From Burkholderia metallica (GTDB lineage: Bacteria; Pseudomonadota; Gammaproteobacteria; Burkholderiales; Burkholderiaceae), in the NCBI RefSeq assembly GCF_902832845.1, contig NZ_CADFDB010000001.1:1426001-1490000 (forward strand): DNA of 64,000 nt. The letters are read 5' to 3'. The notes under the pieces are model-generated. The model saw only the letters and a program-made list of their open reading frames with translations. It ran no database searches and was not told the DNA's origin. The number at the start of each line of letters is the position of its first letter. Position 1 is the first letter of the stretch. Positions 39,721 to 43,153 of the stretch are shown here, piece after piece. The translations under genes were made by a program, and so were the position numbers.

Positions 39721-40842
39721 TTACTTGTCGAGCAGGATGCGCAGCATGCGGCGCAGCGGCTCGGCCGCACCCCACAGCAGCTGGTCGCCGACCGTGAACG
39801 CCGACAGGTATTCACCGCCCATCGCGAGCTTGCGCAGGCGGCCGACCGGCACCGTCAGCGTGCCCGTGACGTTCGCCGGCGACAGGTCGCGCATCGACGC
39901 TTCACGCTCGTTCGGCACGACCTTCACCCAGTCGTTCGCCGACGCGAGGATGCCGTTGATCTCGTCGAGCGGCACGTCCTTGTTCAGCTTGATCGTCAGC
40001 GCCTGCGAATGGCAGCGCATCGCGCCGATCCGCACGCACAGGCCGTCGACCGGAATCGAACCCGGCTCGCCCATGGCCGGCTTGCCGAGGATCTTGTTGG
40101 TTTCCGCGCCGCCCTTCCACTCTTCCTTCGACATCCCGTTGCCGAGATCCTTGTCGATCCACGGGATCAGCGAGCCGGCGAGCGGCACGCCGAAGTTGCT
40201 CGTCGGCATCGCATCGCTGTTCATCGCGGCCAGCACGCGGCGGTCGATGTCGAGGATCGCGGAAGCCGGATCGGCGAGCTGCGCCTGAACCGCGCCGTTC
40301 AGCGTGCCCATCTGCGACAGCAGTTCGCGCATGTTCTGCGCGCCCGCGCCCGACGCGGCCTGGTAGGTCATCGCCGTCATCCAGTCGACGAGGTTCTCGC
40401 GGAACAGGCCGCCGAGCGCCATCAGCATCAGGCTGACCGTACAGTTGCCGCCGATGAAGTTCTTCGTGCCCTTGACGAGCGCGTCCTTGATCACGTCGAG
40501 GTTGACCGGATCGAGGATGATGACCGCGTCGTCCTTCATCCGCAGCGACGATGCCGCGTCGATCCAGTAGCCGTTCCAGCCGGCCGCGCGCAGCTTCGGG
40601 AACACGTCGTTCGTGTAGTCGCCGCCCTGGCACGTGATGATCACGTCGCACTTCTTCAGCTCGTCGACGTTGGTCGCGTCCTTGAGCGTAGTCTCGTTTT
40701 TCGCGAACGACGGCGCTTTGCCGCCCGTGTTGCTGGTGCTGAAAAACACCGGTTCGATCAGGTCGAAATCGCCCTCTTCCTGCATGCGCTGCATCAGGAC
40801 GCTGCCGACCATGCCGCGCCAACCTACGAGACCTACGTTCAT
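39721..40842 (-). CDS. asd: Aspartate-semialdehyde dehydrogenase
   Basis: This 373-residue NADP-dependent enzyme sits at the branch to lysine, diaminopimelate, methionine, threonine and isoleucine. The NADP site is [18 protein letters not shown]. The catalytic cysteine is Cys134 in [11 protein letters not shown], and the histidine is in [16 protein letters not shown]. It is of the Gram-negative enterobacterial-type subgroup by length (E. coli 367). The start at 40842 is standard; upstream codons in the frame are not conserved text. A Thr/Ile-rich small ORF ends 81 bp before it. Confidence 0.97.
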
Positions 40843-40879
40843 GACTAACCCTTTGATGGAGCTTCCCCGCCATTTCCGT

Positions 40880-40986
40880 CCCCGCTGTGACCGCGCGGGG
40901 AAAAAGGCGGGCACGACGGACGATCAGCGTTTAATGATCGTTTTCGTGGTAATGGTTTTCGTGATGACGATGGCGCGCGCACCCGC
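40880..40986 (-). promoter_or_regulatory. Candidate transcription attenuator before asd
   Basis: The minus strand around the small Thr/Ile ORF can form several exclusive pairings. GCGGGTGC (40986-40979) can pair with GTGCCCGC (40914-40907), directly followed by CTTTTT. The short arms ACGATCA and TGATCGT pair around the leader stop codon. CCCCGC pairs with GCGGGG (40900-40880). The first pairing plus the T run resembles a terminator, while the second lies within its loop. The exact mechanism is inferred only. Confidence 0.4.
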
Positions 40987-41043
40987 ACGGGCAGTGTTGC
41001 CGTGGAGTTTCAAGACCGGGGAGATCAGGGATTTAAGCGCCAT
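40924..41043 (-). CDS. Putative Thr/Ile-rich leader peptide upstream of asd
   Basis: This 39-codon ORF starts at ATG 41043 (MALKSLISPVLKLHGNTARA) and ends in IVITKTITTKTIIKR before TGA at 40926-40924. The last 15 codons hold five Thr and five Ile, as in thrL-type leader peptides, and the next gene is asd, which feeds Thr and Ile synthesis. It lies 98 bp downstream of leuB and 81 bp before asd. No clear SD is visible, which lowers confidence. An alternative is chance composition opposite a non-coding strand. Confidence 0.6.
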   Translation of the reverse strand: MALKSLISPVLKLHGNTARAGARAIVITKTITTKTIIKR

Positions 41044-41141
41044 CGTTCGAGTCTACACAAAGCCGGTGGCCCGCACAACGACCAACCGCACGCGAACCGG
41101 CCGATTTCGCGGCCTGTTCGCGCCCTTTCTACATGCTTGCG

Positions 41142-42209
41142 TTACAGCGCCGCGACCACCGCGTCGCCCATTGCCGTCGTACCGACCTGCCGGCAGCCCG
41201 GCGTCGCGATGTCGCCCGTCCGATAGCCCTGTTCGAGCACCGTTTTGACCGCGCGCTCGATGCGATCGGCCTGCTCCGCGCGATTCAGCGAGTAGCGCAG
41301 CATCATCGCGGCCGACAGGATCGTCGCGAGCGGATTCGCGATGCCCTTGCCCGCGATGTCCGGCGCCGAACCGTGCGACGGCTCGTACAGGCCCTTGTTG
41401 TTCTTGTCGAGCGACGCCGACGGCAGCATGCCGATCGAGCCCGTCAGCATCGACGCTTCATCCGACAGGATGTCGCCGAACATGTTGCCGGTGACGATCA
41501 CGTCGAACTGCTTCGGCGCCTTCGCGAGCTGCATCGCCGCGTTGTCGACGTACATGTGCGACAGCTCGACGTCCGCGTATTCCTTCGACACGTCGATCAT
41601 GATGTCGCGCCAGAACTGCGACGTTTCGAGCACGTTCGCCTTGTCGACCGACAGCAGTTTCTTCGCGCGCTTGCGCGCTGCCTGGAACGCGACGTGCGCG
41701 ATGCGGCGCACTTCCGGTTCCGAATAGCGCATCGTGTCGAAGCCTTCGCGTTCGCCCGCGAACAGGCCGTCCGGTGCCGCGCGCACGCCGCGCGGCTGGC
41801 CGAAGTAGATGTCGCCGTTCAGCTCGCGCACGATCAGGATGTCGAGGCCCGCGACCAGCTCGGGCTTCAGCGGCGACGCATCGACGAGTTGCGGATAGCA
41901 GATCGCCGGACGGAAGTTCGCGAACAGCTCCAGATGCTTGCGCAGCCCGAGGATCGCCTGTTCGGGGCGCAGCGCGCGCTCGAGCGAGTCGTACTTCCAG
42001 TCGCCGACCGCGCCGAATAGGATCGCGTCCGCGGCCTTCGCGAGCGCGAGCGTCGCGTCGGGCAGCGGATGGCCGCTCGCCTCGTAGCCCGCGCCGCCGA
42101 CCGGCGCCTGTTCGAGTTCGAACTTCTCGTCGAGTGCGTTCAGCACCTTCACCGCTTCATTGACGATTTCCGGACCGATGCCGTCGCCGGGCAGCACTGC
42201 AATCTTCAT
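41142..42209 (-). CDS. leuB: 3-isopropylmalate dehydrogenase
   Basis: This 355-residue NAD-dependent oxidative decarboxylase of leucine synthesis is complete. [22 protein letters not shown] at the start, [34 protein letters not shown] and [19 protein letters not shown] are the family blocks. It follows leuD by 79 bp and is the last leu gene before the asd leader. Confidence 0.97.
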
Positions 42210-43006: not shown

Positions 43007-43153
43007 TCAGTCCGCGGCGCGCTTGAGCGCGCTGCCGGCGGCGTTGACGTCCTCGCCGAAGCCGCGGACGGTGTTGCAGCCCGCGAGGCCGAAGCCCAGC
43101 CCCGCCAGCGCCAGCACGGCAACCAGCCGCGCAATGACCTTCGATGCCGTCAC
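43007..43153 (-). CDS. Entericidin-like small lipoprotein
   Basis: This 48-residue ORF with a GTG start at 43153 lies 3 bp after the leuC stop. It begins with a hydrophobic signal ([18 protein letters not shown]), then the lipobox LAGC, then [20 protein letters not shown], which matches the entericidin A/B family (CNTVxGxGxDV). It would be a lipid-anchored peptide of unknown or toxin-antitoxin-like role. It lies within the leuC-leuD operon, an arrangement I believe is common in Burkholderia. Confidence 0.8.

Follow-up and report, generated by a model that had tools for sequence, protein, structure and literature searches.

A conserved Thr/Ile/Lys-rich leader before asd in Burkholderiaceae: a candidate ribosome-mediated attenuator with a predicted leaderless start

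Threonine, isoleucine, lysine and methionine are the end products of the pathway through aspartate-semialdehyde dehydrogenase (Asd), and asd lies at the branch to all four. Does the DNA in front of this gene in Burkholderia metallica carry a device by which its expression could follow the supply of those amino acids? The question was raised by an earlier note on a stretch of 64,000 nucleotides (hereafter the window), made from the sequence alone, in which a short ORF with abundant Thr and Ile codons was seen upstream of asd and a thrL-type leader was proposed. We have followed up that proposal at the interval between leuB and asd (40843-41141, minus strand), for which the genes and the leader are as follows.

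41142..42209, minus strand: leuB, the upstream neighbour (NCBIfam TIGR00169, 489 bits against a cut-off of 353)
40924..41043, minus strand: leader ORF of 39 codons with an ATG start and a TGA stop, no Shine-Dalgarno (SD) site, predicted to be leaderless
40930..40965, minus strand: control block, leader codons 27-38, ITKTITTKTIIK, identified by Thr/Ile/Lys enrichment, residues per codon and codon bias
40849..40854, minus strand: probable SD site of asd, AAAGGG, taken from the sequence, with AAGG- or GAGG-type sites at the same place in the aligned rows (by eye)
39721..40842, minus strand: asd, aspartate-semialdehyde dehydrogenase, with its ATG at 40842 (NCBIfam TIGR01745, 648 bits against a cut-off of 403)

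The asd frame is open upstream as far as a GTG at 40914 (window 40843-40914, minus strand), inside an arm of helix S1 described below, so that automatic annotation could begin asd at that GTG and mask the leader RNA; the length of this upstream open frame differs between species. Elsewhere in the window, a short ORF between leuC and leuD (43007-43153, minus strand) has a lipoprotein-like N-terminus, and we take it to resemble entericidin.

The sequence confirms what the earlier note had described, a 39-codon minus-strand ORF with five Thr and five Ile in its last 15 codons and a stop 81 nt before asd. Its C-terminal end reads IVITKTITTKTIIKR, and three further codons of the last 15, left out of the earlier description, are Lys. 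Thr, Ile and Lys together make up 13 of the last 15 residues, against 7 in the next best of 400 window ORFs of 15-70 aa, each read from its first start codon. The leader ORF is real and goes beyond what chance provides.

The earlier note had pointed to a comparison of relatives as a check, and both the ORF and its Thr/Ile codons are kept across genera: the leader was found in 203 of 256 asd loci with enough upstream sequence, as 160 unique sequences encoding 138 distinct peptides. The 256 loci include the same genomes more than once and amount to 219 distinct upstream regions, of which 166 carry the leader; 11 further loci without an asd start stand outside the 256. DNA of the interval, whole or partial, is present in 65/65 genomes of the genus. 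Leaders occur in nine sampled genera of Burkholderiaceae (g1, g3, g5, g8, g10, g13, g20, g24 and g25) whereas sampled loci of fourteen other genera of the family (1-4 loci each) yielded none. The 160 unique leaders encode peptides of 36-60 aa and stop 80-93 nt before asd with TGA (116), TAG (41) or TAA (3). Since related sequences are not independent, these leader counts and the codon counts below are descriptive.

Enrichment for the end-product amino acids is confined to the end of the peptide. Thr, Ile and Lys account for 78% of the last 15 residues of the unique leaders (33, 28 and 17%, respectively) versus 24% of the preceding residues (10, 11 and 3%). In a set of 30 Burkholderia-type leaders, the residue is invariant, Thr or Lys, at codons 33, 34 and 38, and codons 30, 32 and 37 show only Thr-Ile swaps. 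Codons 31, 35 and 36 each have single rows with Val, Ala or Phe; the rows that depart from Thr/Ile/Lys at these three positions and, more so, at codons 27-28 have Val, Ala, Phe, Ser, Gly or Asn. Codon usage in the control blocks (AAA in 392 of 409 Lys codons, the remaining 17 being AAG, and ATT in 329 of 671 ATT and ATC codons, with ATC in 342) is unusual compared with six CDSs of the window, in which AAA accounts for 9 of 87 (AAG 78) and ATT for 5 of 104 (ATC 99). Met, a further end product of Asd, is absent from the block. From this comparison, the Lys codons belong to the control set alongside those for Thr and Ile.

The leader body behaves differently within Burkholderia, where there is no third-position excess of variation (30/28/23 sites) and where single-base codon differences over pairs of the 30 leaders, one of which was out of register, comprise 561 synonymous and 1523 non-synonymous changes. 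This lack of protein-like constraint speaks against a role of the peptide itself. The arrangement is that of an attenuator in two respects, namely a short ORF rich in codons for pathway end products ahead of a biosynthetic gene, and control codons that are kept while the remaining peptide drifts. A possible pause hairpin, CACGG..CCGTG, was seen by eye in the alignment within the leader ORF (40986..41004, minus strand).

The region just upstream of the leader ATG holds two promoter-like elements.

41073..41078, minus strand: weak -35-like TTGTGC, 17 nt upstream of the -10-like box
41050..41055, minus strand: -10-like box TAGACT (within TTTGTGTAGACT), 6 nt before the leader ATG

The absence of an obvious SD at the leader, which the earlier note had given as a caution, was borne out across the family: none of the 160 unique leaders has an SD-like site (AGGA, GGAG, GAGG or AAGG) in the 13-nt SD region. 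Instead, a -10-like hexamer (TAGACT in 108, TATATT in 44, TACACT in 4, TAAACT in 2 and others in 2) lies 6-10 nt before the ATG, at 6 nt in 108/160. The leader filter demanded such a hexamer within reach of the ATG, and one locus (L073) fell outside the leader count for its longer gap between box and ATG, so that the constancy of this spacing is partly selection. The TTGT of the -35-like site is kept in the Burkholderia rows and is not visible by eye in the other genera, and a consensus promoter scan of the window returned none at the leader at the scan threshold. The missing SD and the nearby -10-like box fit a leaderless start, and the leader ORF would then be translated from leaderless mRNA. 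For B. cenocepacia, a mapped -10 consensus of TAnAAT and 72 genes in which transcription begins exactly at the start codon are reported (PMC4603805), and leaderless mRNAs are reported for C. metallidurans (PMC7563307). A precedent for a leaderless attenuator ORF is described in Sinorhizobium meliloti, where the trpL transcript starts at the ATG of the leader ORF (PMC7298713); the predicted start of the asd leader resembles it in this respect, whereas trpL has Trp codons, 14 aa, a transcription terminator and a different gene behind it.

The RNA between the control block and asd was then considered as a set of helices.

40920..40941, minus strand: hairpin A, ACGATCA/TGATCGT, covering the last Thr-Ile codons and the stop codon
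40907..40915, minus strand: helix S1 5' arm, CGTGCCCGC, 8 nt past the leader stop, pairing with 40886-40894
40895..40903, minus strand: helix S2 5' arm, TTTCCCCGC, pairing with 40862-40870
40886..40894, minus strand: helix S1 3' arm, GCGGTCACA, contiguous with the S2 5' arm
40862..40870, minus strand: helix S2 3' arm, GCGGGGAAG, ending 19 nt before the asd ATG

In hairpin A, the last Thr-Ile codons pair with the stop codon and the bases behind it. The hairpin appeared in 41/42 sequences folded singly (under a loose criterion), and in the rows with a TAA (L106) or TAG (L118) stop the opposite arm has changed to match, as judged by eye. The patterns of S1 (CGTGNCYGC with GCRGNCACG) and S2 (YTTCCCCGC with GCGGGGAAR) were found in 131 of 132 unique regions, one having failed the pattern. 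In these 131 sequences the two helices interleave, at 9 positions each, with a first loop (L1) of 2-5 nt, a last loop (L3) of 12-24 nt, a junction of 0 nt between the S1 3' arm and the S2 5' arm in 129/131, and 19-27 nt from the end of S2 to the asd ATG. Two interleaved helices with plausible loop lengths have the geometry of an H-type pseudoknot, which we predict here from the patterns. Eight of the nine S2 pairs are constant or nearly so, and in S1 a C-G pair is changed to U-A in 27/131, probably as one event. A pyrimidine-pyrimidine mismatch in the middle of S1 (window 40911 and 40890) is present in 128/131.

Pairing was scored on an alignment (A2) for which 26 loci without an ORF passing the promoter/ORF filter were dropped and 99 were reduced by similarity to 42, of which 39 rows were used and the near copies L040, L041 and L047 omitted. 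Within A2, 95.1% of cells pair for A, S1 and S2 together versus at most 52.2% when the arms are slid. Two rows, L085 and L105, are offset by one position at their 3' end and are scored as S2 breaks. Cells changed on both sides number 8 versus 3.3 in shuffles (2/500 shuffles reach 8), and the covariation score lies above 498/500 shuffles. Pairs with changes on both sides are 3/24, which 226/500 shuffles reach, and the 11 further pair types fall below the shuffled mean of 12.2. Such a conserved RNA leaves little room for covariation, which by itself is no proof of A, S1 and S2. RNAalifold on A2 returned helix S2 only.

The modelled energies do not settle whether the pseudoknot or nested folds prevail. 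With a generic penalty the pseudoknot averages -25.4 versus -27.0 kcal/mol for nested folds over the 131 sequences and is lower in energy in 32/131; with a stacking bonus it is lower in 90/131. Constrained folding left exposure of the asd SD at 0.52-0.56 across ribosome positions, hardly any change, and gave an S2 probability of 0.63-0.65 with a stalled ribosome versus 0.61 with the ribosome at the stop. Three other pairings were discarded: that of the S1 5' arm with asd codons 9-12, which came from single-sequence folds and looks broken by eye in the Cupriavidus-type asd; that of the control codons with the asd SD, dropped after a few rows were inspected by eye; and a nested hairpin of the S2 5' arm with the last loop, which did no better than shuffled loops in the 131 sequences.

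Among the matches listed (80 of 102), the RNA core is present in records of Paraburkholderia, Caballeronia, Trinickia, Cupriavidus, Ralstonia and Burkholderia, as well as Candidatus Burkholderia crenata and "Burkholderiaceae bacterium". The genome of B. metallica itself has one strong copy, its other covariance-model matches being weak (best E 0.35). A search of the order with stricter filters found 7/399 genomes with a match at E 0.01, six of them strong and all of these in the family. The match in genome G556 (E 0.004) was taken as chance, as it lies in an apparent helicase gene (by eye) in a genome where no asd was found. Of the 53 loci without a leader, three still carry the RNA element, and three more (L143, L166 and L167) have the different leader of family f14 described below. 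One of the first three is L073; in the other two asd is kept and the leader is broken, by an in-frame stop in L074 and by a frame change in L223 (titled a symbiont MAG). Loss of the leader with retention of asd in these two symbiont-like or fragmentary genomes is as expected for a dispensable control device. A 1.2 Mb genome (L082) also keeps asd and has no recognizable leader.

A second version of the leader may exist in another family of the order. Of 51 asd loci fetched from other families, 48 were parsed, and all three genomes of family f14 (L143, L166 and L167) carry a Thr/Ile/Lys leader whose stop lies 80-81 nt before asd; two other leader matches among the 48 look like the end of leuB and a chance ORF. 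The f14 leader RNA differs in sequence from the Burkholderiaceae element. In all three loci there is a hairpin at the control codons, together with complementary arms of the S2 type and a strong nested hairpin; arms of the S1 type were verified in L143 only. It is possibly an older or a convergent attenuator, and three sequences are only suggestive of either origin.

What kind of control could this leader exert? The earlier note had described GCGGGTGC (40979-40986) and GTGCCCGC (40907-40914), followed by CTTTTT, and these are in the window as stated. A classical transcription attenuator would use them as an intrinsic terminator that is released when the ribosome stalls, and the stem has some reality beyond the window: within the leader the GTGCCCGC arm has a perfectly matching 8-nt partner in 42/158 cases, all genera pooled, where about 6 are expected in shuffled leaders, a partner matching at least 7 of 8 positions occurs in 107/158 versus about 69, and the leader folds better than its shuffles (z -2.3). 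The stem is nevertheless far from general, and the GTGCCCGC arm is conserved far beyond its proposed partner. Nor is the T run a conserved feature, with TTTTT in 9/158 unique leaders, TTTT in 12/158 and at least five T in eight in 15/158, and a pattern scan for terminator-like sites gave none in the window. With the U tract of a classical attenuator so rarely present before the gene, a conserved terminator is unsupported and we have rejected it for the family at large; such a terminator may operate in a subset, perhaps part of Burkholderia, and as the explanation of this leader it is quite improbable. The thrL-type leader proposed in the earlier note thus stands in its kept Thr/Ile block, with Lys added, but not in its terminator as a family-wide feature.

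The lack of a conserved intrinsic terminator also agrees with Rho-dependent termination, in which a Rho loading site ahead of asd would be made accessible or inaccessible by the leader and its folds. Rho leaders under ribosome control are known in other systems, and Rho-dependent termination is the main rival for how asd output is set; the compact, structured character of the conserved region speaks against it, and we consider it unlikely. A pseudoknot that binds a metabolite or protein, with the leader peptide secondary, would account for the H-type geometry, the 0-nt junction and the S1 mismatch. It would leave unexplained why the Thr/Ile/Lys block and the -10-like box accompany the RNA in 203 loci, and an Rfam search of the locus gave no family at gathering score (up to E 5, two families only, both far below), which makes this reading improbable. 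As for a functional small protein acting in trans, 36-60 aa is long for a leader and the leader peptide peTrpL is reported to act in trans (PMC7298713), but 138 distinct peptides among 160 sequences and the predominance of non-synonymous change within Burkholderia make it very hard to credit.

We return to a ribosome-mediated attenuator that is tuned by the charging of Thr, Ile and Lys tRNAs and controls asd, to which we assign a probability of about 0.8. Comparison between species supports the ORF, the codon block, the promoter geometry, the SD absence, hairpin A and the complementarity and spacing of S1 and S2; from these we infer promoter use, leader translation, stalling, the direction of the response and, with the earlier note, a response of asd to charged tRNA levels. 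The single strong copy in the genome and the f14 leaders also speak for this reading. Weighing against it are the thin covariation, the return of S2 alone by RNAalifold, the similar energies of pseudoknot and nested folds, the flat ribosome-position model, the lack of a third-position excess in the Burkholderia leader body, the departures at codons 27-28, 31, 35 and 36, the absence of Met and the prior selection of the counted loci for a -10-like box. Transcription would start at or a few nucleotides from the leader ATG, and ribosomes would load on the leaderless mRNA, translating the drifting body (some 20-45 codons) and then the conserved Thr/Ile/Lys block. With a shortage of any of the three amino acids, the ribosome would stall at the block and hold hairpin A open; with ample supply it would run on to the stop, which lies 7-11 nt ahead of helix S1. 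Its position would select the fold of the next ~55 nt, either the S1 and S2 pseudoknot or nested alternatives, and so set asd expression. Because no conserved intrinsic terminator was found, we favour control of translation initiation by folds next to the asd SD over Rho-dependent termination or mRNA stability, and as the ribosome-position model did not separate the states, this is a preference and not a result. The fuller, terminator-free version, in which a ribosome on the leaderless Thr/Ile/Lys ORF would govern an H-type pseudoknot adjacent to the ribosome-binding site of asd and translation would integrate three end products, is put forward tentatively, at somewhat less than an even chance.

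The candidate has relatives in form among known leaders. In thrL, a short ORF with many Thr and Ile codons precedes aspartate-family biosynthesis genes, and a hairpin overlaps the control codons. The asd leader shares the Thr/Ile-rich short ORF before an aspartate-family gene and the hairpin over the control codons, but precedes asd rather than thrABC, adds Lys codons, and has neither an SD nor a conserved intrinsic terminator; the covariance model of the Thr operon leader (RF00506) had no match at the locus. In repY/repZ of IncI plasmids, translation of a leader is linked to a pseudoknot that precedes the main ORF; that system shares the leader ORF and the pseudoknot (predicted here) and, unlike the present one, is not an amino-acid gauge. 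The asd RNA motif of Lactobacillales (RF01732) is described as a conserved RNA named for asd (PMC2864571); it belongs to a different phylum and its model had no match at our locus. E. coli asd encodes the same enzyme, with the same end products, but is reported to be without a typical attenuation signal (Haziza 1982, as cited in PMC5481828). The amino-acid leaders of Rfam named in PMC3766115 at that date are His, Leu, Thr and Trp. Our literature search, which reached few subscription journals and not the principal comparative survey of attenuators in proteobacteria, found no description of this asd leader element.

If this reading is right, the simultaneous sensing of three end products at asd would be a concrete regulatory circuit, open to test, in a large bacterial family with soil, plant and opportunistic members. 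It would also extend the known leader classes by one that went unrecognized here in the Rfam release we searched, and supply a conserved example of leaderless translation serving control.
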